A DNA stretch of 64,000 bases. Source: Oscillospiraceae bacterium. Lineage in GTDB: Bacteria; Bacillota; Clostridia; Oscillospirales; Acutalibacteraceae. A program made the position numbers and the translations under genes. This document shows positions 364 through 15,048 of the stretch, piece by piece. The notes beneath the pieces are model-generated. The model was not told where the DNA came from. It was given only the letters and a program-made list of their open reading frames with translations, and searched no databases. Positions within the stretch are counted from its first letter, which is position 1. Every line of letters starts with the position of its first letter. Location: assembly GCA_015066625.1 (NCBI GenBank), contig SVOC01000006.1, positions 1 through 64,000 of the forward strand, given 5' to 3'.

Positions 364-380
364 ATTATTGATTTAGAGAT

Positions 381-497: not shown

Positions 498-500
498 GTG

Positions 501-546: not shown

Positions 547-548
547 GA

Positions 549-578
549 AAAAAGCACTTCCTGAGGGAAGTGCTTTTT
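549..578 (+). terminator. Rho-independent terminator after the tRNA-Thr fragment
   Basis: A perfect 13-bp stem, 549-561 with 566-578, has a TGAG loop and ends in five T residues. It lies two bases past the CCA end. It is probably the original terminator of the tRNA gene, kept on this side of the break. Confidence 0.8.
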
Positions 579-582
579 CAAC

Positions 583-751
583 GAAATAAATCCCTTACGG
601 GATTTGTGAAATATCCATAGGATGTGAAATATTGCTCAGCAATGTGAAATGCCTGCGGGCGTTGGTGGATTTATTTCATTTCACTTTCTGCATAAGCAGA
701 AAATTTCACGATGACCAACGGTCATTATTTCACATCCGAAGGATATTTCAC
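583..751. repeat. Palindromic element made of GTGAAAT heptamers
   Basis: GTGAAAT occurs at 606-612, 624-630 and 644-650. Its complement ATTTCAC occurs at 678-684, 703-709, 727-733 and 745-751. Nearly every gap between copies is itself a small hairpin, for example ATCC-ata-GGAT, ATTGCT-c-AGCAAT, TTTCTGC-ataa-GCAGAAA and ATGACC-aac-GGTCAT. An outer pair, GAAATAAATCC (583-593) with GGATTTATTTC (667-677), encloses the left half. No open frame of interest runs through it. It looks like a non-coding MITE- or REP-like repeat. The second such element in the window is at 7812-7932. Confidence 0.7.
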
Positions 752-851
752 TAAAACAAAACCGATGCGGCAGAATACGAAGTATACTTACAGCATCGTG
801 TATTACCATTGAAAAGAAAACTATCGCCAAAGAGAATATAAAGTGAAACAT

Positions 852-884
852 ATCTCCTGAAATTCAGATTTCAGGGGATTTTTG
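852..884 (+). terminator. Rho-independent terminator, upstream transcript unknown
   Basis: ATCTCCTGAAAT (852-863) pairs with ATTTCAGGGGAT (868-879) around a TCAG loop, with one wobble, and is followed by a T tract. The 100 bases before it hold no convincing gene. It may close a transcript that reads through the palindromic repeat. Confidence 0.6.
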
Positions 885-900
885 TTTTTTATGAAAACAC

Positions 901-929
901 TTGAAAAAACGGGTTTGTGATGTTATACT
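901..929 (+). promoter_or_regulatory. Promoter of the candidate small RNA
   Basis: TTGAAA (901-906) and TATACT (924-929) are exactly 17 bases apart. The predicted start, about 936, falls on the first bases of the 16-bp stem that closes the structured RNA described next. Confidence 0.7.
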
Positions 930-934
930 AAAAT

Positions 935-1113
935 TACCACACTATAATTTAATATTTTATTCCGATAATAAGGGTTGGTGTTTTTATCTTCGGTAAAAAT
1001 ACGAACTTCTATATTTCTATGCCCTTTTATCGGATATGAAATTATAGTGTGGTAGCTAAACGGAGTTTGTGTTTTTCGTGTGTGCATAACTTCGGTTAGC
1101 ACACACTTTTTTA
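935..1113 (+). ncRNA. Candidate structured small RNA of about 178 nt
   Basis: A perfect 16-bp inverted repeat, 935-950 with 1039-1054, closes a hairpin of about 120 nt. Inside it a second stem pairs 961-974 with 1022-1034 with one bulged base, across an asymmetric internal loop. An apical hairpin lies at about 981-1000. The hairpin is followed by a small AAAC-GGA-GTTT stem (1058-1068) and a terminator. A promoter ending at 929 puts the transcript start at the closing stem. No open frame fits. A long rod with an internal bulge resembles 6S RNA in outline, but I do not recognise the conserved sequence, so the family is left open. Confidence 0.55.
1078..1113 (+). terminator. Terminator of the candidate small RNA
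   Basis: GTGTGTGC (1078-1085) pairs with GCACACAC (1099-1106). An inner TAAC-TTCG-GTTA stem-loop gives a stable UUCG tetraloop, and a single A is bulged at 1086. Seven bases of T-rich tract follow. Confidence 0.8.
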
Positions 1114-1216
1114 TTTTATGGAGAATAAAACGGTGTCAGCTTATTTTGAGGAGGCGAAAATACGATTCTCCATAAACAACATCAAAATACATACAAACCA
1201 AGAGGTGTTTATTGTT

Positions 1217-1789
1217 ATGAAGAAAAAAATTGCAAATGCGGTTCAGCTGGTTTTGTTAATCGCATCATTTGGTATCTTGAATTTGCGAAATATCACAGTG
1301 ATTGGCAACAGCGTATTTAGTCAACCTTATGAGGTTTCTGCTATCAGTCTTATAGAAAAATTTCCTATGTTTTTCATTCCGATGTGTGCTTTATTCTTGC
1401 TCTGTGCGGTTATGTGCATAATTTCCATCATTTCCAAAAGTACATACAAAGACGGTAAAGCCCACGGAGCTGTTGCGATAGTGCTTTTTGTTGTTACAGT
1501 TTTTAATCTTATCACTTGCACACAAGGCGGAAAAGAGCTTTCTGTTATTTCGTCAGAGAAGTTCCCCGGAATAATTGTTATCGGTTTACTGTTTGCAGTA
1601 ATCGTTGTTGCTTTTGCAAAGCGCTCATCGTTCATTGCAGACTCAAAAGAATCACAGCAGACCGTTGTTAATAACATTCAGGAAACCACAAATGCCGATG
1701 AATTGAAAAAATATAAAGATTTGCTTGACAGTGGTGCAATAACTCAGGAAGAGTTTGAAAACAAGAAAAAAGAACTTTTAGGATTATAA
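1217..1789 (+). CDS. Small membrane protein with C-terminal SHOCT domain
   Basis: The protein has 190 residues. Hydrophobic segments at about 7-25, 50-73, 84-100 and 118-135 predict four membrane spans. The last 30 residues (about 161-189) are a SHOCT module: a short charged helix, then L-D-S-G-A-I-T-Q-E-E-F and a lysine-rich helix. SHOCT modules act as oligomerisation or adaptor pieces on many unrelated proteins, so they do not define a function. The ATG at 1217 was preferred over one at 1118. It has an AGAGGTG ribosome site and is followed by a normal MKKK membrane start, while 1118 lies almost on the preceding terminator. The gene stands alone. Confidence 0.75.
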   Translation: MKKKIANAVQLVLLIASFGILNLRNITVIGNSVFSQPYEVSAISLIEKFPMFFIPMCALFLLCAVMCIISIISKSTYKDGKAHGAVAIVLFVVTVFNLITCTQGGKELSVISSEKFPGIIVIGLLFAVIVVAFAKRSSFIADSKESQQTVVNNIQETTNADELKKYKDLLDSGAITQEEFENKKKELLGL

Positions 1790-1793
1790 TATC

Positions 1794-1825
1794 AACAGGG
1801 AGCGGTTTTGCCGTTCCCTGTTTTC
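1794..1825 (+). terminator. Terminator after the SHOCT protein gene
   Basis: AACAGGGAGCGG (1794-1805) pairs with CCGTTCCCTGTT (1811-1822) with one wobble and is followed by a short T tract. Confidence 0.75.
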
Positions 1826-1829
1826 TTCA

Positions 1830-1858
1830 TTGAAAACACAGTATTTTTATGCTATAAT
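1830..1858 (+). promoter_or_regulatory. Sigma-A promoter for the GH43-trmO-SGNH operon
   Basis: TTGAAA (1830-1835) and TATAAT (1853-1858) have a 17-base spacer. It lies 53 bases before the GH43-like gene and just after the preceding terminator. Confidence 0.75.
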
Positions 1859-1911
1859 CAACCCAATGAACCTTAATTTACCGTATTCAAAGTCGAAAAG
1901 AGGTACAAAAG

Positions 1912-2769
1912 ATGAAAAACAGCGAAATAAATATCCGTGACCCGTTTGTTCTTTATGAAAACGAAAAATATTATATGTACGGAACGAGAGCAGAAAATTT
2001 CGGTCAGAAAACCGCAGGCTTCGATGTGTATGTATCAACCGACCTTGAAAACTGGAGTGAGCCCGCAGAGTGCTTTAATTCCGAAAAATATGATATGAAT
2101 CTGAATGTGAACTGGGCACCCGAAGTGCATAAATACAACGGCAGTTATTATATGTTTGCAACCTTCACAAGAAAGAGCAACGGTCTCAGAGGTACGTTTA
2201 TCCTGAAAGCCGGCACTCCTCTCGGTCCTTTTGCGCCTCACAGCAACGGCGTTGTCACACCTGAGGAATGGGAATGCCTTGACGGCACTCTTTACATAAA
2301 CAAAGAAGGCAAGCCGTATATTGTTTTCTGTCACGAGCACACACAGATTATTGACGGCACAATTTGCTATGCACCTCTGAGCGATGACCTTACCGAAAGA
2401 ATCGGAGATGCCGTAACACTTTTCAAGGCATCCGAGCCTTGCTGGGCAGAAGAAATCAAAAACGAAAATGACCACAGAATAACCGACGGTCCTTTTATGT
2501 ACCGCACAAAGACGGGTGAACTTCTGATGCTGTGGTCAACCTTTATAAAGGGCAAATACGCAGAATGTCTTGTTAAATTTACCGACGGCGAGCTCAGCAT
2601 GAATTTTGAGCATCTTGCTCCGCTTATTGATGATGACGGCGGCCACGGTATGATTTTTGGCGGAAAAGACAGTTTGTATCTGACATATCATTCTCCCAAC
2701 TGTACGGGATATGAAAAACCCTGTTTTGTTGAAATTGAGGACAATGGCGATTGCATTCGTATAAAGTAA
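1912..2769 (+). CDS. Glycoside hydrolase family 43-like protein, cytoplasmic
   Basis: The protein has 285 residues and no signal peptide, the usual size of a single five-bladed GH43 propeller. The blade motifs are clear: I-R-D-P-F at 8-12 with D10 as the expected general base, L-D-G-T at 123-126 with D124 as the pKa-modulating Asp, and G-G-H-G-M-I-F at 243-249 with the conserved His. The expected general-acid motif (x-E-G-P) reads T-D-G-P at 191-194. The acid would then be Asp or lie elsewhere. GH43 enzymes usually release arabinose or xylose from plant side chains; the substrate here is unknown. It probably heads a short operon with trmO, 27 bases downstream. Confidence 0.75.
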   Translation: MKNSEINIRDPFVLYENEKYYMYGTRAENFGQKTAGFDVYVSTDLENWSEPAECFNSEKYDMNLNVNWAPEVHKYNGSYYMFATFTRKSNGLRGTFILKAGTPLGPFAPHSNGVVTPEEWECLDGTLYINKEGKPYIVFCHEHTQIIDGTICYAPLSDDLTERIGDAVTLFKASEPCWAEEIKNENDHRITDGPFMYRTKTGELLMLWSTFIKGKYAECLVKFTDGELSMNFEHLAPLIDDDGGHGMIFGGKDSLYLTYHSPNCTGYEKPCFVEIEDNGDCIRIK

Positions 2770-2796
2770 TTTCAGCGTTTTTTTAAGGAGAAAAAT

Positions 2797-3471
2797 ATGA
2801 AGATAATTGCGCATATTCACACCGATTTCACTTCAAAATTCGGCATTCCCCGTCAGAGCGGTCTTGTTGACGAGCTTGAAGCAACAATCATATTTGAGCC
2901 CGAATACCGCATACCCGAAGCCCTCAGAGGCATTGAAGAATATTCCCACATCTGGCTTTTGTGGCAGTTTTCCGAGTGTGCGGATAAAGAGTGGTCGCCG
3001 ACAGTGCGTCCGCCAAGGCTGGGAGGCAACAAAAGAATGGGCGTTTTTGCAACCCGTTCGCCGTTCAGACCAAACCCCATAGGTCTTTCATGCGTTAAAC
3101 TTCTCAGTGTTGAAAAAACAGAAAAATATGGATTTGTTCTGCGTGTTTCAGGAGCTGATTTGCTTGACGGCACGCCGATTTACGATATAAAGCCTTACCT
3201 TCCCTATGTGGACTCCCATCCCGAGGCAAGCAACGGCTTTGCTCTTGATGAAAAACAGGGGAGATTAGCGGTTGAAATTCCCGACGGAATTATTGATGTG
3301 ATACCCGAGGGTAAGCGTAATGCTCTTAAAGCCGTTCTTGCACAGGACCCCAGACCCGGATATCAGAATGAGCCCGACAGGGTATACGGCATTGACTTTG
3401 CAGGTTTTAACATAAGGTTTACTGTTAATGCAGACGACGTACTGACGATTGTTGATATAACAAAGGAATGA
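2797..3471 (+). CDS. trmO: tRNA (adenine(37)-N6)-methyltransferase TrmO
   Basis: The protein has 224 residues and carries the family signature G-V-F-A-T-R-S-P-F-R-P-N-P-I-G at 82-96. D-L-L-D-G-T-P follows about 40 residues later, and a D-P-R-P stretch lies near residue 188. This SAM-dependent enzyme (YaeB/TsaA, UPF0066) methylates N6-threonylcarbamoyladenosine at position 37 of tRNA-Thr. A ribosome site AAGGAG precedes the ATG. It sits between a glycosidase and an esterase, probably by co-transcription rather than shared function. Confidence 0.9.
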   Translation: MKIIAHIHTDFTSKFGIPRQSGLVDELEATIIFEPEYRIPEALRGIEEYSHIWLLWQFSECADKEWSPTVRPPRLGGNKRMGVFATRSPFRPNPIGLSCVKLLSVEKTEKYGFVLRVSGADLLDGTPIYDIKPYLPYVDSHPEASNGFALDEKQGRLAVEIPDGIIDVIPEGKRNALKAVLAQDPRPGYQNEPDRVYGIDFAGFNIRFTVNADDVLTIVDITKE

Positions 3472-3480
3472 GGTGATTTT

Positions 3481-4662
3481 ATGGGTGAAAAATGGGTTCA
3501 GACCTGGGGTCAGGCACATTCCGCATTATCTTTTTTCTATTATCCGTCATGCCCAAAGACATACAGAATGGTTATAAAATCCGCCGTATCGGGCAGTCAG
3601 GTACGCATTGAACTTTCAAATGAATGTGCAAAAAACCCTGTGCTTATCGGTGCTTTGTCAGTCGCAAAGTGCGACGAAAACGGCAATCTCACGGGTGAAG
3701 CAAAGCGTGTAACCGTAAAAGGTCAGGGCGGTTTCTGGCTTAAAATCGGGCAGACTGCGGTTACGGACCCCGTAAAGCTTGATATCGGTGTAAATGAATA
3801 TTTTTGTGTCAGCGCATATGTTAAAAAAGGTGCGCTGAGAAGCGGGAATCTTATTGACAATGTTGACCTTATTACGGTCAAGGGCAATGCTGTTGCCGAA
3901 AAATACATAACCAATCAGCGAAGAATCCGTGACGGCGTAAGAGAGGTTGCTTCAAAGGTACTGAAAATGTATTTCCATAAGCCCATTCCGTTGTTTCAGT
4001 CTGTTGAGCTCCTTAACGGTACAGGGGCAACGGCAATAACGGTTTTCGGTGATTCCATAAGTCAGCAGGGATATTGGACAAATGCTTTTGCCGAGAGAAT
4101 CAGAAATGAATTCCCCGGCAGATATTCGGTAATCAATAAATCAATTATGGGCAACAGAATTCTTCGTGATTTCAGCAGACGGTTCATATGCAAGGGGCTT
4201 TTCGGTATAAGCGGAATCAACCGGCTTGAAAGAGATGTGCTGAATTATGACGATACTGAATACGTGATTTTTGTATTGGGTACAAATGACTTTTTACAGT
4301 ACGGCACCATAACTACTCCGAAAAGTGAAAAGCCAACCGCAAGGGAAGCACTTGACGGCGTTATAAGCATAGGCGAAAGGCTTGCGGAAAAGGGAAAAAA
4401 GTTTGTAGTTTTCAATGTGCTGAATTTCGGCGAATGTATTGATTCAAGACCTGAAAAAGAAAAACTTGTGCACGAATATAACCGGCTTCTTGAAGAGAAT
4501 AAACACCTTTTTTATTCGGTTTATGACCAGGCTTCTGTTTGTGTCAATCCCGAAAAACCGAACTGCTCAAAGAAGGAATATCTCGGTAAAGATAATCTTC
4601 ACCCCAATAAGCTCGGCGGAAAGCTTGTTGCCGATAATATTGATTTAAACATATTCAGATAA
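3481..4662 (+). CDS. SGNH/GDSL-type hydrolase with N-terminal beta domain
   Basis: The protein has 393 residues and no signal peptide. Residues 1 to about 165 look like the beta-sandwich that precedes the catalytic part in some carbohydrate esterases. The SGNH blocks follow: F-G-D-S-I at about 189-193 with the nucleophile Ser, L-G-T-N-D near 264-268 with the oxyanion Asn, and D-N-L-H-P-N near 374-379 with the catalytic Asp and His. This is the layout of GDSL carbohydrate deacetylases. The gene begins nine bases after trmO and ends at a strong terminator. Confidence 0.8.
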   Translation: MGEKWVQTWGQAHSALSFFYYPSCPKTYRMVIKSAVSGSQVRIELSNECAKNPVLIGALSVAKCDENGNLTGEAKRVTVKGQGGFWLKIGQTAVTDPVKLDIGVNEYFCVSAYVKKGALRSGNLIDNVDLITVKGNAVAEKYITNQRRIRDGVREVASKVLKMYFHKPIPLFQSVELLNGTGATAITVFGDSISQQGYWTNAFAERIRNEFPGRYSVINKSIMGNRILRDFSRRFICKGLFGISGINRLERDVLNYDDTEYVIFVLGTNDFLQYGTITTPKSEKPTAREALDGVISIGERLAEKGKKFVVFNVLNFGECIDSRPEKEKLVHEYNRLLEENKHLFYSVYDQASVCVNPEKPNCSKKEYLGKDNLHPNKLGGKLVADNIDLNIFR

Positions 4663-4666
4663 GTAA

Positions 4667-4709
4667 ACACCGCAGTGTGCATTCAGTCACTCTGCGGTGT
4701 CTTTTTTTT
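4667..4709. terminator. Terminator shared by convergent genes
   Basis: ACACCGCAG (4667-4675) pairs with CTGCGGTGT (4692-4700), with extra GTG/CAC pairs inside, and eight T residues follow. It ends the SGNH gene and lies directly at the end of the convergent peptidase gene. Confidence 0.8.
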
Positions 4710-6759
4710 AGTAAATATAGTTTTTGGGGTTCTGGGTTTCACCGTTGCGGATAACCTCAAAGTGAAGGTGGGGTCCCGTGGAGTTACCCGTTGAACCGAC
4801 TTTGCCGATGGTTCTGCCCGCTTCAACATAATCGCCTACGGAAACGGTTATGGAGCCTTTAATCATATGGGCGTAGCGGGTTTTATAACCGTCGCCGTGG
4901 TTGATAAGCACCATATTTCCGTAGCCCGAACTGCTTCGCTGAACAACCTCAACTCTGCCGCTTTTTGATGCTATAACGGGTGTGCCCGATGCACCGCCGC
5001 CTGCCTTTACAAGGTCAATGCCGTTGTGCCAGCCGCTGCTTCGCCAGCCGTAGGGCGAGCTTACTCTGTGGCAGCTGGGTGCAGGCCATAAGAAGCCTGA
5101 ATCCGAAGCCTCGCCGATATATACACCGCCGTAAGAGGTTCGTGTGCCTACGGTAACGATTTCGTCAACGGGTTCGGTTATTGTTTCATAAAGATACTCT
5201 GTATCCTGCAGAACACCGTCAATATAAATCTGGGTTTTGATAACTCTTTCACTGCCGTTGATACCCTTCTGAAGCACCTGTCTGTAGCCGCTGTATTTGG
5301 TAGCATCGCGCCTCTTGACGGTTTCATACTTGATATCCTGAACCGTGGTCGTGGTAACGATTTTTCTTATGCTTATAAGCTTTTCTTCGCCGTTAAGTAT
5401 TTCGGCAAGCTGTGAAGCCTCCCACATAACATCCTCATCGTCGCGATAAAGACCCTGAACATAGTCAATGTTTTCAGCAAAGCCGATTGCGTAGCCGTTA
5501 AGCTCTGCATCCGCTTCATAAGGCTCAAGAATGTCGTAAAATACGGTTTTGGCATCCGCCTCATTCTTCACCGCACAGATGAATTCGCCGTCAATGTAAA
5601 TACCGCAGGCGTTTGTAAGATTGTCAACGGAATTTTCGATGATTTTATCCGAAATAGCCTGAGCATCGTTAAGCTCATCCACCGATACAATGCTCAGATT
5701 GTAGTTTGCGTTAAGGTTGGGGGATGCGGCAACGGTGGCTTCAACCTTTGAAGTATCCGCATAAGCGCTGCCCGTCAGACGGTCTTTTACGAGGCTCTTT
5801 GCCTCAACATAAACAGATTCGTTACTGATGTATCCTATGCTGCGGTCGTTATAAATAACCTCAAGCGCAAAGGTTGCATTGTTCCAATAATTGACCGTGA
5901 TAATCAGAACTGCCAGCGCACCTATGGGCAAAAGTATATTTGCCGCAGATTTGAGCAGACCGCTGTGTCTGTGCACGGCAAGCCTGATATAACGGAAAAG
6001 CACCGACGGAAGTGAAAGAGGCTTTTTGAAAGCATGCCTTATTGATTTGCCGGCATGCTTTATTTCTTTACGGAAGCGAGCTGCTTCTTTTACGGTGTTT
6101 CTCAGCTTTACGGCGGTTTTGCGCTTCGTGCTTTCCGTAACTCCTGAAAGAAATTTATAAAAAGCAACAAAAGGCTTTTTGATTAAACCGAAAACTGCCG
6201 CAAAAACCGCACTGAGCACGGTGCAGATTGTGTTGCCGTATTCATAGAAAAGCGCATAAACGGGGTTAAGCTCATCGGTGTCAAAGATTTTTTCTTCGGC
6301 ATCTTTTTTTACACGCTCTTTTTTCGGCTTTTTCTTCTTTGCTTTTTTAACGGGCTTTCCCTCTTGCTTTTCTTCAGCATCTGAAACGGACAGGGAGCCG
6401 TCATTGATTATATCGTCAATTCTTTCAAGCTCTTCCTTTACCGTTTCACGGCTGTCAAATTCGGGTACCGTTTCCTTGGCGGTTGCAGGTTTCTTTTTGG
6501 GCGAAACCTTGCTTTGTGCCGTTTCAAGCTGTAAAGCATATCTGCGCTCGATATCTTCTTTGATTGCCTGCATTTCAAGGGCGCGTCGTTCTTCGTCCTT
6601 GCGTTTAAGCTCTTCTTCACGGGTCAGAGTCTTTTTCGGCGCAGGCTGTGAGTAAAGCTCGGACAGGTCATAAAAACCGTCTGCAATTTCATCAAGCACC
6701 GATTTCTTTTTGCCGTCTGTATTTTCAGCGTTATTAACTTTTTTCTCTTCGTTGTTCAT
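4708..6759 (-). CDS. Membrane-anchored M23 peptidase with G5 domain
   Basis: The protein has 683 residues. The first 270 or so are highly charged, with lysine runs and predicted coiled coil, and should be cytoplasmic. One membrane span at about 272-290 puts the rest outside. Next come a poorly defined region and a G5 domain at about 470-545, then a LytM/M23 zinc endopeptidase domain at about 575-680. That domain has the H-N-G-I-D metal motif and H-L-H-F-E near the C-terminus. Such proteins cut peptidoglycan cross-bridges. In spore formers G5-M23 proteins can take part in septum or engulfment work, which is inference here. A GGAG site precedes the ATG. Confidence 0.85.
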   Translation of the reverse strand: MNNEEKKVNNAENTDGKKKSVLDEIADGFYDLSELYSQPAPKKTLTREEELKRKDEERRALEMQAIKEDIERRYALQLETAQSKVSPKKKPATAKETVPEFDSRETVKEELERIDDIINDGSLSVSDAEEKQEGKPVKKAKKKKPKKERVKKDAEEKIFDTDELNPVYALFYEYGNTICTVLSAVFAAVFGLIKKPFVAFYKFLSGVTESTKRKTAVKLRNTVKEAARFRKEIKHAGKSIRHAFKKPLSLPSVLFRYIRLAVHRHSGLLKSAANILLPIGALAVLIITVNYWNNATFALEVIYNDRSIGYISNESVYVEAKSLVKDRLTGSAYADTSKVEATVAASPNLNANYNLSIVSVDELNDAQAISDKIIENSVDNLTNACGIYIDGEFICAVKNEADAKTVFYDILEPYEADAELNGYAIGFAENIDYVQGLYRDDEDVMWEASQLAEILNGEEKLISIRKIVTTTTVQDIKYETVKRRDATKYSGYRQVLQKGINGSERVIKTQIYIDGVLQDTEYLYETITEPVDEIVTVGTRTSYGGVYIGEASDSGFLWPAPSCHRVSSPYGWRSSGWHNGIDLVKAGGGASGTPVIASKSGRVEVVQRSSSGYGNMVLINHGDGYKTRYAHMIKGSITVSVGDYVEAGRTIGKVGSTGNSTGPHLHFEVIRNGETQNPKNYIY

Positions 6760-6791
6760 TAAAACGCTCCGAATTTTATATTATCCTATAC

Positions 6792-6820
6792 ATTATAATA
6801 GAAAAACGGCATATTTACAA
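6792..6820 (-). promoter_or_regulatory. Promoter of the M23/G5 peptidase gene
   Basis: On the minus strand TTGTAA (6820-6815) and TATAAT (6797-6792) are 17 bases apart, 33 bases before the ATG. The -35 box lies inside the terminator hairpin of the upstream rfbD gene. Confidence 0.65.
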
Positions 6821-6845
6821 GACTGAATTTGCAGATATGCCGTTT
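6804..6845 (-). terminator. Terminator of rfbD
   Basis: AAACGGCATAT (6845-6835 read on the minus strand) pairs with its complement (6814-6804) around a 20-base loop and is followed on the minus strand by a T-rich tract. It starts nine bases after the rfbD stop codon. Confidence 0.65.
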
Positions 6846-6853
6846 GTTCAAAT

Positions 6854-7696
6854 TTAATTTACATTATCGAGAAAACGTTTCAGCGCATCCTGCCACTCGG
6901 GAAGACGCTCAAAGCCGTTTTCGTCAAGAGATTTTTTTGAAAGACGGGAGTTTGCGGGTCTGACGGCAACGGATTTGTATTCCGCACTGCCGATGGGAAT
7001 GATTTTTGTGTCTGCATGAGAATATTCCATAATCGTTTTTGCGAATTCAGCCCAGCTGCAAAAGCCCTCGTTGGTAGCGTGGTAAACGCCGTACTTTTCG
7101 CCCTGAATCATTTCACAAAGAAGCTTCGCAAGGTCTTTTGTGTATGTGGGTGAGCCTGTCTGGTCGCAGACAACGGATATTTCATCCCTCTCTTTTGCAA
7201 GACGGAGCATTGTTTTGACAAAATTCTTGCCGTTTTCACCGAAAACCCAGGATATCCTTACAACAAAGCACTGCGGGCATTCGCTCATTGCGGCAATTTC
7301 GCCTTGGTGCTTGGTTACGCCGTAATAATTGCAGGGTGACGGGGGAGTGTCCACCTCAAAAGGTTCCGTGCCTTCACCGCTGAAAACATAATCCGTGCTG
7401 ATATAAAGCAGCTTTATTCCGTGCTTGCGGCAGGATTTTGCAATGTTGGCAGTTCCGTCAACATTTATTTTTCTGCAAAGCTCACGCTCCGTTTCGGCAA
7501 CGTCAACATTGGTGAAGGCGGCGCAGTGAATAACGCCGTCTGCATTGCTTTGTGCAATAAAGCTTTCAACGGCTTCGGGGTTTGTTATATCAAGCTCGGG
7601 CAGGTCTGCTTCAACAGCCTCGGCACCGATTTTATCAAGCCGAGCAACAACATCGGAGCCAAGCTGACCCTTTGAGCCCGTAACGATTATTTTCAT
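6854..7696 (-). CDS. rfbD: dTDP-4-dehydrorhamnose reductase
   Basis: The protein has 280 residues, the normal length. The N-terminal Rossmann motif is V-T-G-S-K-G-Q-L-G, and the active-site Y-x-x-x-K is Y-G-V-T-K after the S-T-D-Y-V-F block typical of RmlD. It makes dTDP-L-rhamnose with NADPH, a sugar for cell-surface polymers. The start at 7696 (MKIIVTG) was chosen over an upstream ATG because AAAGGAA sits at the right distance and the family begins here. No other rhamnose genes (rfbA, B, C) are adjacent. Confidence 0.88.
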   Translation of the reverse strand: MKIIVTGSKGQLGSDVVARLDKIGAEAVEADLPELDITNPEAVESFIAQSNADGVIHCAAFTNVDVAETERELCRKINVDGTANIAKSCRKHGIKLLYISTDYVFSGEGTEPFEVDTPPSPCNYYGVTKHQGEIAAMSECPQCFVVRISWVFGENGKNFVKTMLRLAKERDEISVVCDQTGSPTYTKDLAKLLCEMIQGEKYGVYHATNEGFCSWAEFAKTIMEYSHADTKIIPIGSAEYKSVAVRPANSRLSKKSLDENGFERLPEWQDALKRFLDNVN

Positions 7697-7811
7697 AACG
7701 GAAAATTCCTTTGCTTTTTTTGATATTTTACCATATTTTTGCCCCGTTAACAATATTTTTTTGAATTTTACTGTTGCAATCGGTAAAAATGTGATATTAT
7801 ATGTTTTGATA

Positions 7812-7932
7812 AGTGAAAAGTTAAGAGTGAAGAGTGAAAAGTTTCGGATAGGCTCCGCCTATGACCGATTATATAATGGGTACGGGCAAAGCCCGTCATT
7901 AACTATTCACTTTTCATTATTCACTGTTCACT
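7812..7932. repeat. MITE-like inverted-repeat element
   Basis: Imperfect 31-bp terminal arms, AGTGAAAAGT... (7812-7842) and its complement ...ACTGTTCACT (7902-7932), agree at roughly four fifths of positions. The interior holds two hairpins: ATAGGC-tcc-GCCTAT with outer TCGG/CCGA (7844-7868), and ACGGGC-aaa-GCCCGT (7882-7896). The element fills the gap between divergently transcribed rfbD and the PHP gene and has no open frame. Its plan (GTGAA-type units spaced by small hairpins) recalls the element at 583-751. Confidence 0.65.
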
Positions 7933-7986
7933 GACAAGCACACGTTTGCTGTTATGCTTGTTTGTGTAAATAAGGGGGTGCCGAAT

Positions 7987-8805
7987 ATGGCTTTTAAAAA
8001 TCTTATTGACCTTCATACTCACACCGATAATTCGTTTGACGGTCATCATTCAACAATGTTTCTTGCGGAAACGGCATATATGAAGGGCCTGAGAGCGGTT
8101 GCTTTCACCGACCATCTTGAAATGGATGCTTTCCTTAAAGGGAACTTTAACCGCACAGCAATCCAATCATTTTTTGAGGTCGCCAAGGCACGCTCCGCTT
8201 TTAACGGCAAGCTGATAGTATGTGTGGGTGCGGAATTGGGTCAGCCTGTTTACGATATACCTCTTTCAGAAAAGCTTCTGAGCACAATGAAATATGATTT
8301 CGTTATCGGTGCAATACATAATCTTCCCGATAAGCAGGATTTTTACTATATGGATTTCAGCGATGAAAGCATTGATTATATGAAACTGCTTGATGAATAT
8401 TTTGAGTGGGAGCTTAAACTTGCCCGGTGGGGCGGATTTGATACCCTGGCGCATCTTACCTATCCCTTGCGTTACATTGTGGGCAACTACGGCAAAATCG
8501 TTGATATGAGCAGATATTCCGAAATAATCGATGAAATCCTGCTTGAACTTATCAAAAATAAAAAATCACTTGAAATAAACACGGCAGGTCTTCGCAAAAA
8601 AATCGGCGTTACCTCGCCCGATGAAAGCATGGTAAGACGTTACAAAGAGCTTGGCGGCGAGCTTATCACCATCGGCTCCGATGCCCATTACGCAGAGCAT
8701 CTGGGTGCGGATATCGATAAAGGCTACGAGCTTGCCCTCCGATGCGGCTTTGATAAGGTTGCGGTTTATCAGGACAGAACACCAACGCTTATTCCTATTG
8801 AATAA
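7987..8805 (+). CDS. PHP-domain phosphatase, histidinol-phosphatase (HisJ)-like
   Basis: The protein has 272 residues. PHP metal motifs are in order: D-L-H-T-H-T-D near the start, F-T-D-H-L-E, a conserved Glu in G-A-E-L-G, G-A-I-H, and G-S-D-A-H near the C-terminus. This matches the class that removes phosphate from L-histidinol phosphate in many Clostridia, but no other his genes are near and PHP enzymes vary in substrate. The ATG at 7987 with GGGGGTG before it is preferred over one eleven codons upstream. ispE follows after 15 bases. Confidence 0.75.
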   Translation: MAFKNLIDLHTHTDNSFDGHHSTMFLAETAYMKGLRAVAFTDHLEMDAFLKGNFNRTAIQSFFEVAKARSAFNGKLIVCVGAELGQPVYDIPLSEKLLSTMKYDFVIGAIHNLPDKQDFYYMDFSDESIDYMKLLDEYFEWELKLARWGGFDTLAHLTYPLRYIVGNYGKIVDMSRYSEIIDEILLELIKNKKSLEINTAGLRKKIGVTSPDESMVRRYKELGGELITIGSDAHYAEHLGADIDKGYELALRCGFDKVAVYQDRTPTLIPIE

Positions 8806-8820
8806 AGGAGTGTGACGGAT

Positions 8821-9684
8821 ATGAAAATAACGGTTAACGCACCTGCGAAAATCAATCTTTTTCTGGATATCATAGGCAGACTTGATAACGGATACCACAG
8901 CCTTTTTATGGTTATGCAATCGGTTGACCTTGCGGATACGGTTATCATTGAATCCTGTGAGGAAAAAGGAATATTTTTAACCTGCTCTGACGGCAGACTG
9001 CCCACGGACAAAAAAAATATTGCATACAAAGCGGCTGAGAAATTCTGCGGATATGCAGGAATTGAGCCTTCTTTCAGAATACATATTGAAAAGAAAATTC
9101 CCTTTGCCGCAGGTCTTGCAGGGGGAAGTGCGGATGCCGCCGCCGTTATAGCGGGGCTTAATTCAATGCTGAATACAGGCTTTACCCAGAGGCAGCTTTG
9201 CGAAATCGGTCTTTCCGTAGGCAGTGACGTGCCCTTCTGTATTGCGGGAGGTACTCAGCTTTCCCAGAGTACGGGCGGAGTGCTTTCGCCTCTGAAAGAG
9301 CTTGAGGATTGCTTTATTGTGCTTGCAAAGCCCGAAGCGGGAGTGTCCACAGCAGAGGCTTATGCCGCCGCAGATAATACACATCTTTACAGACCCGACA
9401 GTATGCGTATGCTTGATGCCTGCGAAAAGGGTGATTTTGAAGGTATATGCAAATATGCAGGCAATGTTTTTGAGCAGGTAATTGAAGTGCCCGAAAGGGT
9501 TGAATTCAAAAAGATAATGAGAGATTGCGGAGCGTCACTTTGCCAGATGAGCGGCAGCGGACCTACGGTTTTCGGTATTTTCAAGAATATTGAGGATGCG
9601 GAAAAATGCGCCGAGAAGCTTAAAGAAATCTGCAATAATGTTTACCTTGCAAAACCCGTAAACCACGGCGCAACAGTTGTATAA
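8821..9684 (+). CDS. ispE: 4-diphosphocytidyl-2-C-methyl-D-erythritol kinase
   Basis: The protein has 287 residues and belongs to the GHMP kinases. It shows P-A-K-I-N-L at the N-terminus and the ATP loop P-x-A-A-G-L-A-G-G-S-A-D-A-A-A. It also has S-D-V-P-F-C-I and the C-terminal S-G-S-G-P-T-V-F. It phosphorylates CDP-methylerythritol in the MEP isoprenoid route; dxs and ispA of the same route are at 26544 and 25641. The ATG at 8821 was chosen over a GTG at 8812 because the AAGGAG site is ten bases before it. Confidence 0.93.
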   Translation: MKITVNAPAKINLFLDIIGRLDNGYHSLFMVMQSVDLADTVIIESCEEKGIFLTCSDGRLPTDKKNIAYKAAEKFCGYAGIEPSFRIHIEKKIPFAAGLAGGSADAAAVIAGLNSMLNTGFTQRQLCEIGLSVGSDVPFCIAGGTQLSQSTGGVLSPLKELEDCFIVLAKPEAGVSTAEAYAAADNTHLYRPDSMRMLDACEKGDFEGICKYAGNVFEQVIEVPERVEFKKIMRDCGASLCQMSGSGPTVFGIFKNIEDAEKCAEKLKEICNNVYLAKPVNHGATVV

Positions 9685-9690
9685 AGTAAC

Positions 9691-9718
9691 AAAAAGCACC
9701 CCGCAGGGTGCTTTTTTT
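9691..9718. terminator. Bidirectional terminator between ispE and the CARF nuclease gene
   Basis: AAAAAGCACCC (9691-9701) pairs with GGGTGCTTTTT (9706-9716) around CGCA, with T tracts on both strands, so it can end both convergent genes. Confidence 0.85.
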
Positions 9719-9721
9719 GTT

Positions 9722-10969
9722 TCAGTTTGCACTCCACAGCTTTTTCAGCTTGTGCATAAATTTTTCTTCGCTTATCTCATCGATGTTTTCAAAAATTCTT
9801 ATATCCATAGCTTCACAGCGGGCTCTGATATAGGCTTCATTTTCGCCCATCTTTTCCAGCTCCGTTACCGCAAGCACCTTGCGCACATATTTTCCGCCGA
9901 ATTTTTCCGCAACAACAGAAAGCTTATAGAGCTCATCCATTTTGACCATACCGTTTTTGCAGGAAATGAAAACAGGCGTAAGCCCTTTCATAAGAATAAC
10001 ATCGATTTCGTTGCCTACATCCGCACCGTCACTGCCGTGAATATCGCTGTCCCAGTCAATGAATATACCCGTCATAACATCGGTGTAAACGGGCTCGCCT
10101 TCGTCGTCGGTAAGCTCAGCGGCTTTCAGTGCAATAATAAGCTCAAGTATCTGACCGGCTTTTGTGAGGCATTTCATAACCTGCTCATTCTTGAATGAAA
10201 AACTCATGCTTTCGCGGTCGATTTTAAGGTTGTTTATAACGCTCAGGTTGAAAAGCTTTTTGTAGAGGTCGGTCTTGAAATCGCATTTCTCGCCTCTGTT
10301 ATTCATCGCTTCTTTTGCATCAGCAAAATTGATATAGACAGAAAGACTGTCCGGCTCAAGATAAAAGCTGCGGAGCTTATCGAGGATGCTGAGCTGAAAA
10401 TTCCACAGTGAGGGATTCTGCTTGCACAGTGACCACATAACATAAACATCGTCTGTGAATTCATCGTCGAAATCCCAGCAGTAGGTGCCGTTGGATTTTT
10501 CGTCACTGTAAATAATTCTGCCGCCGTTTATTTCAACGGTTTCTTCAACCGTCAGCTCAAGGGGTGCCGAATTGCAGAGTATTCCGTCGGAATCGCAATC
10601 GGTCATGGTGCTGTTTGAAATATTGAAGCGGTGAAGCCTGATTTTATCCGCATTGTCGCAATAGACTATGCCTACCGCAACAAGCGAAAGGTCGTCGCCG
10701 CCGCTGAGATCGATAATGCAGTCGTCATTGTCTTCAAGCACTTCCTCAATGGCATCCACTATTGACATAAGGTTGTTTTTGTTTATTGCCTTTGCCTCGA
10801 ATTCAACTTCGATTCCGCGGTTTCGGGCAATTTTTTTGTAGCCGTCGCTGATGCGGTCAATCTTTTTCTTGCCGTCACCGAGAAAAACCACCTTGTCGGG
10901 AGCACAAAGCAGGGTACTTATCATATTTTCAACGGGAGATTCCCAATCAAAAAATTCGATTATTGTCAT
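9722..10969 (-). CDS. Card1-like (DUF1887) CARF-domain nuclease
   Basis: The protein has 415 residues. Residues 1 to about 125 have the alternating strand-helix pattern of a CARF/Rossmann sensor, with a G-D-G-K-K loop at 31-35 and D-L-S-G-G-D-D at 87-93. The middle (about 170-260) looks like a winged-helix linker. Residues 265-385 carry a PD-(D/E)XK nuclease: E276, N-E-I-D-V at 320-324, and V-F-I-S-C-K-N-G at 333-340. This is the layout of Card1/Can2 nucleases, which are switched on by cyclic oligoadenylate in type III CRISPR systems. No CRISPR array or cas gene is present in the window. The gene is last in a three-gene operon, 14 bases after the AAA-protease gene, with AAAGGAAT before the ATG. 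Confidence 0.72.
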   Translation of the reverse strand: MTIIEFFDWESPVENMISTLLCAPDKVVFLGDGKKKIDRISDGYKKIARNRGIEVEFEAKAINKNNLMSIVDAIEEVLEDNDDCIIDLSGGDDLSLVAVGIVYCDNADKIRLHRFNISNSTMTDCDSDGILCNSAPLELTVEETVEINGGRIIYSDEKSNGTYCWDFDDEFTDDVYVMWSLCKQNPSLWNFQLSILDKLRSFYLEPDSLSVYINFADAKEAMNNRGEKCDFKTDLYKKLFNLSVINNLKIDRESMSFSFKNEQVMKCLTKAGQILELIIALKAAELTDDEGEPVYTDVMTGIFIDWDSDIHGSDGADVGNEIDVILMKGLTPVFISCKNGMVKMDELYKLSVVAEKFGGKYVRKVLAVTELEKMGENEAYIRARCEAMDIRIFENIDEISEEKFMHKLKKLWSAN

Positions 10970-10983
10970 TGTATGTAATTCCT

Positions 10984-13900
10984 TTATACGGTTGTTTTAT
11001 TGAATGAAGGTGAGATTATTGCTTCAATTTCGTTGCCGCTGAGCTGGTTTCTGGCTACAAGCTCCGCAACGAGAGCATTTGTTGCTTCCATATTGTCCTC
11101 GATAATGCGTACTGCTTTTTCAAGCTCGGCACGGAGAATGGCGTTAATCAGACTTCTTATCTCCGATTGAAGCTCATATGTGGGAGAAATTGCAGCAAGA
11201 CCGAAGCCTTCCGTCATTCCGTAACGGCAAATCATATCCGTTGCAAGCATTGTGGCGTGTTCAAGGTCACCCGACGCACCGGTTGAGATACCGCCTTTTT
11301 CCCCGTAATAGACCATTTCGGAGGCTCTGCCTGCCAGAGAGGTTCTGATTTTTGCCAGAAGCTCGTCTTTTGTGAATATTCCCTTGCCTTCGTTATCGCC
11401 GTGCTGCATATATCCGCCGTGATTCCCTCTGGAAACAATGGTTACATATGAGGGCTTTTCTCCGCTGTGACGGCATACGATTGTGTGTCCTGCCTCGTGG
11501 CGTGCCACTCTGAGAATCTGTTCTTCGCTCCATTTTTTTGAATCGCCGCCGTTAAAGCCTTCAAATGCTTCATCAAAGTCCTTGTCATTCACCTTGAATT
11601 TTTCGGATTTGATGGCATTTCTCAATGCAAATTCATAAACCGATTCAAGCTCCGCAAGGCTCATACCCACGGAACGGACTGCAATATTTTCAATCATATG
11701 CTCGCTTATTTCAAATACCGCATTTGAATTCAGCTTGCGTGCAAGGTATGCTTTTCTGGCTTCCTTATCGGGCAGACCGATATAAACCTTTCTGTCGAAG
11801 CGTCTGCAGAGTGCAGGGTCAAGGCTTTTGGCAGTGCCCGGTTCAACATTGAAGTTTGTTGCGGCAAGCACAAAAACGGGTTTTGACGGGTCGGTTTTGA
11901 AGCCGTCCATTTCTGCAAGGAAAGCGGTGAGGGTATCTTCTGAGCCTGAGTTGTTGCCCACTCTTTCTTTTGCAATGGCATCGATTTCGTCTATGAACAG
12001 TATTGAAGGTGCGTATTTACGTGCGGTTCTGAATAAATCGTGAACTGCGGCAGAGCCTTCACCGATGTGGCTTTTAAGGAATTTGTTGCCTTCCGAATTT
12101 ATGAATGTAACGTTGGATTCACCTGCCATTGCCTTGGCGAGCATTGTTTTGCCCGTGCCGGGAGGTCCGTAAAGCAAAATACCTCTGGGAACTTTTACAC
12201 CTGTTGAAGCGAATCTGTCGGGGTCTTTGAGGTAGCTTACAAAATAACGGAGCTCGTCTTTTGCACTGTCTGCACCGATAATGCTGTCAAAAACAACGTC
12301 GGGTCTTGAAATATCGCTGAGAATATTCTTGGAATCGTCAGGGTCCACGGCAACGGTAAGCTCAAAATCAAAAAGAGATATTTCCGCAACCTTGCCGTCA
12401 TCCGAAAGAGTCTGTGATGTTTCAAAGCTTACAACTTTGTTTGCCCTCGAAAGCTTGTTCATGCTTCTCTGCTGGTGAATATATCCGCAAAGCTCCGTAA
12501 CAAGCTGACTGAATCTGCCGTCATCAATCAAGGGTATAATATCTCTTGCACCTTCCTTGGTGTATGAGAACTCTTCTTCTTCCGTAAAGCTGTGGGCTTC
12601 TGTTTCAAAAATATAAAGGGGAGTGCTCGGTGCCGCTGACCTTGCGTGACGGAAGAAATCTCTGCCGGGGGAGTCAATATCGGCTATGTTAAGGCTCTTG
12701 CAGTCGCAGGCGGCATCAAAACATACGTCGCAGAGAATAAGGTCGATATCGCCTTTCTTCAGCAGCTTTTCTGCTGCGGCAAGGTCTGATACCGTTATTA
12801 TTTCCGCCGCATTCTCAGGCACGGACCATCCCTGTGTTGAGGATTCCTGTGCAAAAACAAGCACCTTTGCTTTATTTTTACCGTAGAAAAGCTCGTTGAT
12901 TTCGGGGTCGTTTTCAGGCAGATCCACAGTGAATCTGATTTTTTCAAGATTGCTCAGACCGCTTGAAAGCTTTGAGAAATCAATCAGACGGAAAAGCTCA
13001 AAAAGCTCGCCGTCATAAAAGGCTTCGGCTCTTGCCCTGACGGTTCTTGCATCCGCCGCACCGCCCTCCGCAAAAAGGAGAGAGGGGAAAACTCTTTCGT
13101 CAAATTCGGATTTTATTCCGAATTCAGCTTTAAGGTTATCGGCGTGCCTGAGAACCTCTTTCTTTGCAATGGTTCTGAGATTATGCGCCTCAATATGATT
13201 GAACATAACCACATTTCCCGAAGCAAAGCGTGAGCAAATGGCACCGGGGAAGTAGCTTTCACCCGTGTTGGGGTTCTTATCGCCTGCAAGGGCTTTGAGG
13301 ATAACCTTTCTTGAAAGACCCGAATAGTTGCCCGTTTCAGATTCCTCATAAAGCTTTCTGCCTGCGTTGGTTGTGAAAATCAGAATTGTATCTTTGAAGG
13401 AGATTTCAACATCTGTGTAGTTATCCCTGAGTCTTCCTGCGTCAAGAATCTGCAGGAAAAGGTGGATAACATTGAGGTGTGCCTTTTCGATTTCGTCAAA
13501 GAGAATCACGCAGTGAGGGTTTTCTTCAACATACTGTGTTACGTTACCTCTTTTGCCGTTTTTGTAAACCTTATCGGAACCGCAGAATTCTATAACGGCT
13601 TCATCGTCAGAGTATTCGCTCATATCAAAGCGCCTGAAGGGAAGCTTCAATACCTCTGCCGCACTTTCGGCAAGGAAGGTTTTACCTACACCGGGAGGGC
13701 CTGCGAAAAGAAATGTTGCTCTGGGTCTTTTACGCTTTTTGTCGGTCATTGCAAGCATTTCGGACTGGAAGAATCCCGTTGAAAAAACATTTACCGCATT
13801 ATCCTGACCGAAAATTCTGTCAAGCAGGCTGTCACGGATTCTTTTTGTTTTGTTAATCAGGGATTTTATTCTGTCCTTGCCTTCCTCTTGCGGCTCGGCT

Positions 13901-14376
13901 TCCTGAGCAGGCTTTGTTTCTTCTTCGGTTGCTGCCGTAAAGGGCTTGCCCTCTATGATGTGAGCCTTTATTCCCTCGGTTGGACTGTCGATTATACACT
14001 GCAGAATCATATCTGCACCGATAGTGCTCAGATTGTTGATTTGTGCTCTTTTTCTTGCAGATATCAGTGCTTTGCTTTTTGCGAGCACTCGCTGAGAAAC
14101 GGGGCTTTCATCTGCTGCGGCATATTTTTCAAGCTCAGTCAGTGCGGCTTCAAGATTGGCTGAACGGCTGTGTAATAGCTCCGATACCCGTTTGATTTCA
14201 TTGTCATCAAACGGTAAATCGGCAACGGGGGAAACAGTTTTGTTTTGTGAAATGACATACAGTGCGGCGCAGTAAATGTGTTCAACATAAACCGTGGTTG
14301 CGGCCGCAGCCTCTTTCCTTTCGTTTGCATATGACAGTATGTATTCCGTGAAGGTGCTAAGCTTGATTTCATTCAT
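10984..14376 (-). CDS. ClpN-AAA-receiver-like-FtsH/M41 fusion protease
   Basis: The protein has 1130 residues. Residues 1-145 resemble the double helical repeat of Clp N-domains. About 170-465 is a ClpA/B D2-like AAA+ module with Walker A G-P-P-G-V-G-K-T (226-233) and Walker B D-E at 294-295. About 503-640 has a response-regulator receiver pattern with D550 in L-I-L-C-D-V. About 690-940 is an FtsH AAA module with Walker A (737-744), Walker B I-D-E-I-D (795-799) and R-R-F-D-R (858-862). About 950-1125 is an M41 zinc protease with H-E-A-G-H (960-964) and third ligand D1037. No membrane span is visible, unlike true FtsH, which has two at the N-terminus. Both ATPase sites and the protease site look intact, so an active soluble ATP-dependent protease is expected. 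It lies between a membrane-protein gene and the CARF nuclease gene. Confidence 0.8.
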   Translation of the reverse strand: MNEIKLSTFTEYILSYANERKEAAAATTVYVEHIYCAALYVISQNKTVSPVADLPFDDNEIKRVSELLHSRSANLEAALTELEKYAAADESPVSQRVLAKSKALISARKRAQINNLSTIGADMILQCIIDSPTEGIKAHIIEGKPFTAATEEETKPAQEAEPQEEGKDRIKSLINKTKRIRDSLLDRIFGQDNAVNVFSTGFFQSEMLAMTDKKRKRPRATFLFAGPPGVGKTFLAESAAEVLKLPFRRFDMSEYSDDEAVIEFCGSDKVYKNGKRGNVTQYVEENPHCVILFDEIEKAHLNVIHLFLQILDAGRLRDNYTDVEISFKDTILIFTTNAGRKLYEESETGNYSGLSRKVILKALAGDKNPNTGESYFPGAICSRFASGNVVMFNHIEAHNLRTIAKKEVLRHADNLKAEFGIKSEFDERVFPSLLFAEGGAADARTVRARAEAFYDGELFELFRLIDFSKLSSGLSNLEKIRFTVDLPENDPEINELFYGKNKAKVLVFAQESSTQGWSVPENAAEIITVSDLAAAEKLLKKGDIDLILCDVCFDAACDCKSLNIADIDSPGRDFFRHARSAAPSTPLYIFETEAHSFTEEEEFSYTKEGARDIIPLIDDGRFSQLVTELCGYIHQQRSMNKLSRANKVVSFETSQTLSDDGKVAEISLFDFELTVAVDPDDSKNILSDISRPDVVFDSIIGADSAKDELRYFVSYLKDPDRFASTGVKVPRGILLYGPPGTGKTMLAKAMAGESNVTFINSEGNKFLKSHIGEGSAAVHDLFRTARKYAPSILFIDEIDAIAKERVGNNSGSEDTLTAFLAEMDGFKTDPSKPVFVLAATNFNVEPGTAKSLDPALCRRFDRKVYIGLPDKEARKAYLARKLNSNAVFEISEHMIENIAVRSVGMSLAELESVYEFALRNAIKSEKFKVNDKDFDEAFEGFNGGDSKKWSEEQILRVARHEAGHTIVCRHSGEKPSYVTIVSRGNHGGYMQHGDNEGKGIFTKDELLAKIRTSLAGRASEMVYYGEKGGISTGASGDLEHATMLATDMICRYGMTEGFGLAAISPTYELQSEIRSLINAILRAELEKAVRIIEDNMEATNALVAELVARNQLSGNEIEAIISPSFNKTTV

Positions 14377-14398
14377 TCTTAATCCCGTCCTTTATATA

Positions 14399-14941
14399 TC
14401 AATCTTTTTTTCTGAATCTTATAAGACCTATGATTATTGAAATAAGGTTGAGAACCTCTGTAACAATACCCGAATACGATGAGCAGATTACGTTATAAAC
14501 CAGCCACATGGCGGAGGTGGGCATTGTCAGTGCTCTGAGCTGTTGGGTTTTTGGGCTCCATATGACGAAGGATGAAATCATCATTGCCGCCATAGGCAGA
14601 AGGGATGCAGGGCTTGTGTATGTGGCAAGACCGCCCAGGCATGCAAGAATTGCAAAAACAACGGGGCAGGCGATATGGTCAACCGTTTTTGACCTGCCTC
14701 TGAATGAATATGCAATGCTCCTTGTGAAGCCCACCACGTTGCCTATCATTCCTTCATAAGCGCCCAGCATAAAATACTGAACCGCAAACAAAAATCCCGA
14801 GCACGCCTGCATAACAACAATTCGCTTGTGGGTGCGCTGCTGGAATGAAAGAAGAAGCAGTGCGGCGGCAACAAAGCCTATAAGCTGTGAAACGATGAAA
14901 GTTGTGTCTTTACCCGAAAAATAATTTGTCAGAAAATCCAT
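14399..14941 (-). CDS. YgjV-family inner membrane protein
   Basis: The protein has 180 residues, mostly hydrophobic, with about five or six membrane spans. The pattern (an N-terminal span with G-F-x-A-A, then Q-Q-R-T-H-K and a C-terminal R-F-R-K-K tail) fits the YgjV family, whose function is not established. The gene is first in the operon with the AAA-protease (22 bases downstream) and the CARF nuclease. It has AAGAGG before its ATG. It might anchor or signal to the soluble protease, but this is inference. Confidence 0.7.
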   Translation of the reverse strand: MDFLTNYFSGKDTTFIVSQLIGFVAAALLLLSFQQRTHKRIVVMQACSGFLFAVQYFMLGAYEGMIGNVVGFTRSIAYSFRGRSKTVDHIACPVVFAILACLGGLATYTSPASLLPMAAMMISSFVIWSPKTQQLRALTMPTSAMWLVYNVICSSYSGIVTEVLNLISIIIGLIRFRKKD

Positions 14942-14971: not shown

Positions 14972-15000
14972 ATTATAGACCAACAACGAGTAAATGACAA
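14972..15000 (-). promoter_or_regulatory. Promoter of the YgjV/AAA-protease/CARF nuclease operon
   Basis: On the minus strand TTGTCA (15000-14995) and TATAAT (14977-14972) are 17 bases apart and about 30 bases before the first ATG. It begins after the terminator of the upstream yfhO-like gene, so the three genes should form their own transcript. No clear operator was seen. Confidence 0.75.
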
Positions 15001-15013
15001 GTATGAAATGAAG

Positions 15014-15048
15014 AAAAAGGACACTGCCCGTAAAGGCAATGTCCTTTT
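15014..15048 (-). terminator. Terminator of the YfhO-like gene
   Basis: On the minus strand AAAAGGACATTGCC pairs with GGCAGTGTCCTTTTT (stems 15048-15035 and 15028-15014) around a six-base loop, with a T tract. It isolates the following operon. Confidence 0.75.

Follow-up and report, generated by a model that had tools for sequence, protein, structure and literature searches.

A candidate modular cassette of Clostridia pairing a dual-AAA zinc protease with a CARF nuclease

Background

What may a protease with two ATPase modules and a CARF nuclease have to do with each other? The question is raised by a stretch of 64,000 nucleotides from an Oscillospiraceae bacterium (assembly GCA_015066625.1, contig SVOC01000006.1, positions 1 to 64,000; hereafter the window), in which the two genes are adjacent and are preceded by the gene of a YgjV-type membrane protein. 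CARF effectors have been studied mostly alongside type III CRISPR systems. A preliminary description of the window, made from the sequence alone, took the three genes as one sensing-and-response unit. We favour a narrower reading: the window probably carries protease plus CARF nuclease as a two-gene version of an accessory cassette, modular in its make-up, of gut-type Clostridia. The protease-CARF cassette very probably forms one functional module. The three genes are as follows (aa, amino acids).

10984..14376, minus strand: gene of a soluble dual-AAA zinc protease, 1130 aa, assigned by domain matches and invariant residues
9722..10969, minus strand: gene of a protein with CARF and PD-(D/E)xK-type nuclease domains, a relative of Card1/Can2 (DUF1887, CARF4), 415 aa
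14399..14941, minus strand: gene of a YgjV-type inner membrane protein (PF10688), 180 aa; Imp-YgjV, E 1e-40 in Pfam

Re-reading of the open reading frames bore out the first account of three minus-strand genes, with gaps of 22 bases (YgjV/protease) and 14 bases (protease/CARF). An AGG/GGA-type ribosome site lies before each of the three ATG starts. Judged from their letters, the frames are complete and keep both ATPase sites and the zinc site of the protease, as well as the nuclease's acidic pair and its lysine.

Linkage of the protease and CARF genes

The protease and the CARF protein meet more often than chance allows. Among 300 genomes of the family, the full-length protease was found in 9 and CARF homologues in 42, with both in 8 (Fisher p 6e-7). 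The 42 include partial matches inside larger frames; for the 17 strongest CARF matches alone, the co-occurrence p is 1e-10. These p values ignore relatedness, and the 9 protease genomes span 8 genera. The two genes lie at most 6 kb apart in four of the eight genomes with both (chance 7e-8): they are adjacent in the window's genome (G000) and in G064, and within 6 kb of each other in G260 and G290. The remaining four genomes have them on separate contigs of draft assemblies.

At the class level, 391 genomes were scanned; here, as in the 300-genome scan, the best two protease candidates per genome were scored. The protease was found in three genomes (G000, G623 and G649) at E 1e-110 and over most of its length, in G649 without the N domain. 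CARF matches were present in 47 of the 391, G623 and G649 not being among them, and 34 of the 42 CARF genomes of the family have no protease. Therefore, neither gene requires the other.

When 84,980 species genomes were scanned with a single peptide pattern, 142 relatives of the protease were confirmed. The locus counts given here refer to the best 80 of these 142, and 77 of the 80 have a protease frame (L155, L178 and L200 have none over the threshold). By their labels, 79 of the 80 loci come from Clostridia or their subgroups and one from an uncultured bacterium, many of them from gut samples. CARF is encoded in the flanks of the protease in 20 of the 77 loci, a count that includes L179 and a weak match in a 1501-aa frame of L201; at least 5 kb was available on both sides in only 40 of the 77. 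The pair is thus not confined to one species. As to its recurrence in unrelated contexts or defence islands, which the preliminary description had raised, the pair was found in many species and several gene orders, and the neighbours, as far as they were scanned, form no classical defence island. Given such recurrence, it is very unlikely that protease and CARF are chance neighbours in one transcription unit; YgjV is the gene that does resemble a neighbour of this kind.

Recurrent partners

Besides CARF, the flanks of the 77 loci encode a YbjN-like protein in 36 cases, a TM-RCK-RyR-like protein in 27 and a 94-aa RyR protein (PF02026, 5e-39) in 13. One YbjN-like protein was checked (PF10722, 2e-9). 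The TM-RCK-RyR label is based on two to four hydrophobic segments (hydropathy). In the membrane protein of locus L143, TrkA_N (1.2e-4) and RyR (0.0045) are both slightly under the Pfam cut-offs, and a profile of the C-terminus matches bacterial RyR structures at 6e-10 to 5e-4. This protein is encoded in 26 of the 300 family genomes, including 7 of the 9 with the protease; a search of the window's own genome found none.

Same-strand runs with gaps of at most 250 bases include CARF in 14 cases, and 12 of these 14 also contain the TM-RCK-RyR-like gene. Eight different core-gene strings are seen among the 14. The form present in the window, CARF without TM-RCK-RyR, is a minority: 2 of the 14 runs, and 7 of the 21 rows labelled for both genes within 6 kb. 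By these comparisons, the predicted pair was repeatedly linked and re-ordered, mostly together with the TM-RCK-RyR-like membrane protein.

A tree of 75 proteases calls for at least 13 changes of the CARF link, 16 of the TM-RCK-RyR link and 18 of the YbjN link. The tree omits L179, a second contig that repeats the genes of L169 and belongs to the metagenome-assembled genome of that locus, as well as 6 proteases shorter than 1050 aa, and has 5 added rows; rows with short flanks are unlabelled (22 of 75 for CARF). Distances among the proteases are correlated with those among their CARF partners (r 0.67 for 25 pairs, reached in 0 of 2000 permutations), and shared species history contributes to this value. 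Both this comparison and the CARF alignment were limited to CARF proteins of 300-600 aa, which excludes that of L201.

Further genes were noticed at these loci and in one other cluster. A zincin-like protein (HEFGHALGLGD) and a weakly TerB-like protein of 153 aa (0.006, below the cut-off) form a conserved pair behind the protease in L144 (12885-14451), L145, L154 and L187. Another recurrent neighbour of the protease, seen in L181 (13878-14711), L162, L185, L191 and L212, has some 270 aa and only a weak likeness to sigma factors (Sigma70_r2 0.022); in L181 and L191 it lies directly behind the CARF gene. In G290 (L071, 11336-14917), the gene of a STAND-like NTPase of 1193 aa (NPHP3_N 3e-5, slightly under the cut-off) separates the TM-RCK-RyR-like gene from CARF, all in one run with the protease. 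Finally, L120 (G235:C41:31000-48000, 5093-13735) has a TM-RCK-RyR-like protein grouped with an AAA protein (AAA_lid_6 type, assigned by clustering), a TIR-LRR protein and a weakly RCK-like protein of 703 aa; no protease of the window's family is encoded in that stretch.

Domains of the protease

The protease has a Clp-D2-type AAA module (AAA_2) at aa 217-348, an FtsH-type AAA module at 733-867 and Peptidase_M41 at 950-1120. In an alignment of 45 relatives, the Walker motifs of both AAA modules are invariant, and so are H960, E961 and H964 (HEAGH, 960-964) and D1037. The latter is the third zinc ligand of the M41 site, and the combination of AAA and M41 expected of FtsH is present. The two ATPase modules of the preliminary description are thus both clear, with their motifs intact.

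Its receiver-like and ClpN domains have fared less well. A profile of the family matches response regulators at E 0.007, and Pfam Response_reg (0.082) is below its cut-off; by our own reading of the alignment, the receiver-like domain appears degenerate, with the aspartate conserved and the other receiver residues missing. Similarly, the N domain is weakly ClpN-like: ClpA N-domain structures match the profile of the family at 4e-4, and Clp_N in Pfam gave no match for 30 family members at 0.01. Mean identity among relatives is 18% in the N domain and 32% in the receiver-like domain, versus 58 and 64% in the ATPase domains. The type of N domain goes with the neighbours TM-RCK-RyR (p 0.005) and YbjN (p 0.04), both values being raw and ignoring relatedness. 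Hydropathy indicated no transmembrane segment in the window's protease and none in 68 of 71 relatives. Membership in the anti-phage IetA/IteA group was not supported: the NCBIfam IteA model gave 146.8 bits against a cut-off of 510, from the AAA region alone. FtsH-like and Clp-like proteins are also encoded elsewhere in the window's genome; therefore, this protease is an extra one.

Pfam and profile matches revealed no recognised ligand domain in the protease except the degenerate receiver-like fold. This is a point against the idea that the protease, the nuclease and the membrane protein are parallel effectors, that is, separate killing or arrest arms answering a shared ligand or signal with no mutual regulation, like the several ancillary effectors of one CRISPR system. 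The cassettes do freely gain and lose parts, and the CARF and TM-RCK-RyR-like proteins each occur also in genomes without the protease, as this idea would have it. We consider it unlikely.

The CARF nuclease

The 415-aa protein matches the PADLOC CARF_PDDEXK models at 8e-32 over aa 2-410. Pfam Card1_endonuc (0.016) is below its cut-off for this protein and above it for the relative in L192 (3.8e-8). Among solved structures, the family profile matches VC1899 (1xmx) at 2.7e-10 and Can2 (7bdv) at 1e-7. The acidic pair E321 and D323 (NE(I/L)D) and K338 are kept in all 32 distinct members; by the residue roles given in PMC7969007, E321 and D323 are the counterparts of Can2 E276 and D278. The position of the ExK glutamate, which lies at the metal site as E323 in Cdn1 and E302 in TsuCan2 (as given in PMC12825302 and PMC7969007), is a serine in 32 of 32 aligned members (S336-C337-K338). 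A glutamate eight residues past K338, E346, is present in all 32 and may stand in for the missing one. Relatives in L106, L107, L108 and L113 also have SCK, with the acid one residue earlier. Since CCGG-family restriction enzymes have a permuted PD..K..D/E site (described in PMC6344858), the CARF nuclease is likely to be active with a rearranged site.

The ligand pocket differs as well. The positions of the Can2 contacts Ser19 and Lys99 to cyclic tetraadenylate (cA4) are acidic in 30 of the 30 members with letters there, which argues against Can2-like cA4 binding; the Thr42 position is mixed and never Thr. On the other hand, a member in G024, 42% identical to the window's CARF protein, of the same SxK subfamily and sharing the acidic pocket residues, is encoded directly behind a type III-B CRISPR operon with Cas6, Cmr1, Cas10 with SGGDD, and Cmr3-6 (L080, G024:C9:1-18000; operon and CARF gene at 336-8227). 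This weakens the pocket argument and keeps cA4 sensing possible. The same locus speaks for the view that the CARF protein is an orphaned type III effector, borrowed from cyclic-oligoadenylate signalling, and that the protease merely happens to be its neighbour. Against this stand the above-chance linkage to the protease and the scarcity of Cas10: the palm domain (PF22335) gave no match in the window's genome, which is 97.7% complete, and it matched in 3 of 27 CARF or protease genomes, the window's genome being among the 27. We regard this view as quite improbable.

The preliminary designation as a Card1-like CARF nuclease stands for the CARF-PD-(D/E)xK architecture and the acidic pair; it fails for the ExK glutamate, the cA4 contacts and the company of Cas10. 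Card1 in the strict sense, a group whose nuclease activity cA4 or cA6 switches on, was accordingly rejected on the ExK and cA4-contact positions.

Two related observations may be added. The window's own genome encodes a CBASS-type nucleotide cyclase and an E1-E2 protein at the end of another contig (L224, G000:C9:1-9000, 269-2745); we do not link this cyclase to the CARF protein. In L104 (G585:C96, 1501-3984), a single frame of 827 aa joins a CARF nuclease to a tRNA nucleotidyltransferase (PolyA_pol head domain, 6e-39), which represents either a true fusion or a lost stop codon.

YgjV and the insertion site

The YgjV gene was found in only one of the 77 protease loci, L143, and is convergent there. 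In L143, PHP and ispE are followed by three plus-strand genes (protease, TM-RCK-RyR-like, CARF), after which comes YgjV on the minus strand. Compared with L143, the sole locus of the 80 whose flanks were compared gene by gene with the window, the window agrees in its flanking genes and their orientation, with protease and CARF inverted and the third cassette gene absent. Identity between the two is 70-83% for the flanking genes (77% for YgjV), 58.5% for the protease and 56% for CARF. Four other members of the genus keep ispE, and three of them PHP. Neither YgjV, protease nor CARF was found beside ispE in the stretches from these four, one of which is a contig that ends right after ispE.

Because of this single convergent recurrence and the ispE flank kept in the genus, YgjV is probably a resident flanking gene, co-directional in the window and outside the conserved cassette; as a cassette component it was rejected. 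YgjV as the membrane partner, as assumed in the preliminary description, is therefore not supported, and the recurrent membrane partner is the TM-RCK-RyR-like protein. The cassette is best read as exchangeable at the ispE/YgjV site, and it may make use of the YgjV transcript.

Transcription signals and genomic context

The following signals surround the three-gene unit.

14972..15000, minus strand: promoter-like site before YgjV, TTGTCA-17-TATAAT, 11 of 12 consensus positions, the region's best match
15015..15048, minus strand: terminator-like hairpin of 15 pairs behind the upstream YfhO gene
9691..9716, both ways: two-way terminator-like hairpin of 11 pairs, in the interval between the CARF gene and the next gene

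The shared promoter first proposed is thus the best candidate of the region; the number of promoter matches (13) shows no excess over shuffles (12.1 +/- 3.5). The terminators claimed on both sides were recovered as the region's two longest terminator-like hairpins, at 15048-15015 and 9691-9716, which flank the unit; the total of such hairpins in the region, 12, is inside the shuffle range (9.4 +/- 3.2). The YfhO gene (Pfam) borders the unit on the YgjV side, and past the CARF end lie genes which we take to be ispE and PHP.

The cassette is on a chromosomal contig, and its GC content matches the surroundings; a foreign base composition was not found. A mobile element has no support either, phage, plasmid and viral collections having no full-length protease. 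The neighbours of the cassette are diverse: 82 hand-picked of 180 operon co-members span 90 Pfam families, none of which occurs in more than 4 of the 82, TIR being found in 4.

These data bear on the possibility that the cassette serves stress proteostasis and has no immune role, with the protease clearing damaged proteins while RNA and ions are tuned, within the same stress regulon, by the CARF nuclease and the membrane protein. The chromosomal setting with ordinary GC content, the lack of copies on plasmids or in phages and the scattered co-members all fit it. Patchy spread does not (9 of the 300 family genomes and none of four other genus members), and neither do the divergence of the cassette, faster than that of its flanks, with exchange at the same site, and partners such as a CARF nuclease and RyR-type proteins. 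We think it rather unlikely, somewhat less so than parallel effectors.

Interpretation

The sensing-and-response unit of the preliminary description is plausible because the pair recurs above chance, in several orders and with sensor-type partners; its membrane part has to be replaced, as said above. Our tentative interpretation, which is quite possible, is that the cassette serves defence or stress, is modular and quick to diverge, and has ligand-gated effectors under the control of the protease. The soluble protease would be the regulator. Its variable N and receiver-like domains would select substrates, assisted in relatives by the YbjN-type small proteins, and the two rings would unfold them for cutting by M41. 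The clients would be the cassette's own ligand-gated effectors: the CARF nuclease in the window and, elsewhere, a channel-like protein too. The protease might hold these effectors low or release them upon a danger signal. With its ligand bound, the CARF protein would cut RNA or DNA and growth would stop, as with Card1/Can2. The purpose would be an antiviral or severe-stress response. Defence is favoured because of the patchy spread, the exchange at one site and the types of partners; a stress role is possible.

Several observations weigh against this interpretation. First, each gene is more often seen alone than with the other, an outcome that the preliminary description had named as counting against it: besides the 34 protease-free CARF genomes, 57 of the 77 protease loci show no CARF in the available flanks. 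Second, a test of independent pairs for CARF versus TM-RCK-RyR on the protease tree was not significant (median p 0.375), and the type of N domain does not track the presence of CARF (p 0.25). Third, a classical defence island is unsupported: 12 PADLOC families were seen, each in 1 of the 82 co-members. Fourth, phage and plasmid records contain no full-length protease at 80% cover, the FtsH-like part alone giving matches, and no CARF; viral contigs contain neither a full-length protease nor CARF. The lack of full-length copies in these collections gives no sign of mobile carriage and, together with operon neighbours that are not defence-like, disfavours defence. Moreover, the CARF protein is only a presumed client of the protease. 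Regulation by the protease and the defence purpose are the weak steps of the interpretation.

A bolder version is possible, if more doubtful. The cassette could represent a protease-centred immune or stress system new to science, built on a soluble Clp/FtsH hybrid with two rings and a zinc protease of its own, which would control exchangeable SxK-CARF nuclease and TM-RCK-RyR channel effectors by way of fast-evolving recognition domains and YbjN-type adaptors, with a CARF signal other than cA4. A CARF nuclease family would then be tied to a large self-contained AAA protease and RyR-type membrane proteins rather than to type III CRISPR. If true, this offers a concrete way to learn what orphan CARF proteins respond to and by what means bacteria restrain such nucleases.

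Comparison with known systems

The preliminary description knew of no system with this composition. In the literature searched, we likewise found none that joins a CARF nuclease, an AAA protease and an RyR-type partner, and no soluble protein that combines a Clp-type AAA, an FtsH-type AAA and M41; the main CARF classification paper and a 2015 survey of nucleotide-centred conflict systems may mention parts.

The nuclease resembles Card1/Can2 in its N-terminal CARF domain, C-terminal PD-(D/E)xK-type domain, NE(I/L)D acidic pair and lysine. It differs in the serine at the place of the ExK glutamate, the acidic cA4-contact positions and a genome without a Cas10 palm match. The C-terminal half of the protease is like FtsH in its AAA module, HEAGH motif and third zinc ligand. 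However, it has no transmembrane segment by hydropathy, two AAA modules instead of a single AAA ring, the extra one being of the Clp type, and additional N and receiver-like domains, and the FtsH model gives 340 bits against a cut-off of 600. With ClpA/ClpC it shares the weakly ClpN-like N domain and the D2-type AAA; unlike them, it has the M41 protease in cis and a second AAA module, of the FtsH type.

Two systems with proteases in conflict-type settings are also comparable. In SAVED-Lon (CRISPR-Lon, CalpL), as described in PMC9704534, a protease and a domain for nucleotide signals work in a single response, as may be the case here. There, the two are parts of one polypeptide linked to type III CRISPR, whereas the window has separate genes, an M41 protease and a nuclease partner. 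The MoxR-vWA FtsH ternary conflict systems, in the account of eLife 2020;9:e52696, likewise have operons of the conflict type that join an FtsH-type AAA to another AAA; they have two FtsH-type AAA modules, the first inactive, plus MoxR and vWA. In contrast, the operon in the window, free of MoxR and vWA, adds YgjV and CARF to its protease, and the first AAA module of that protease is of the Clp type, with Walker A and B intact.

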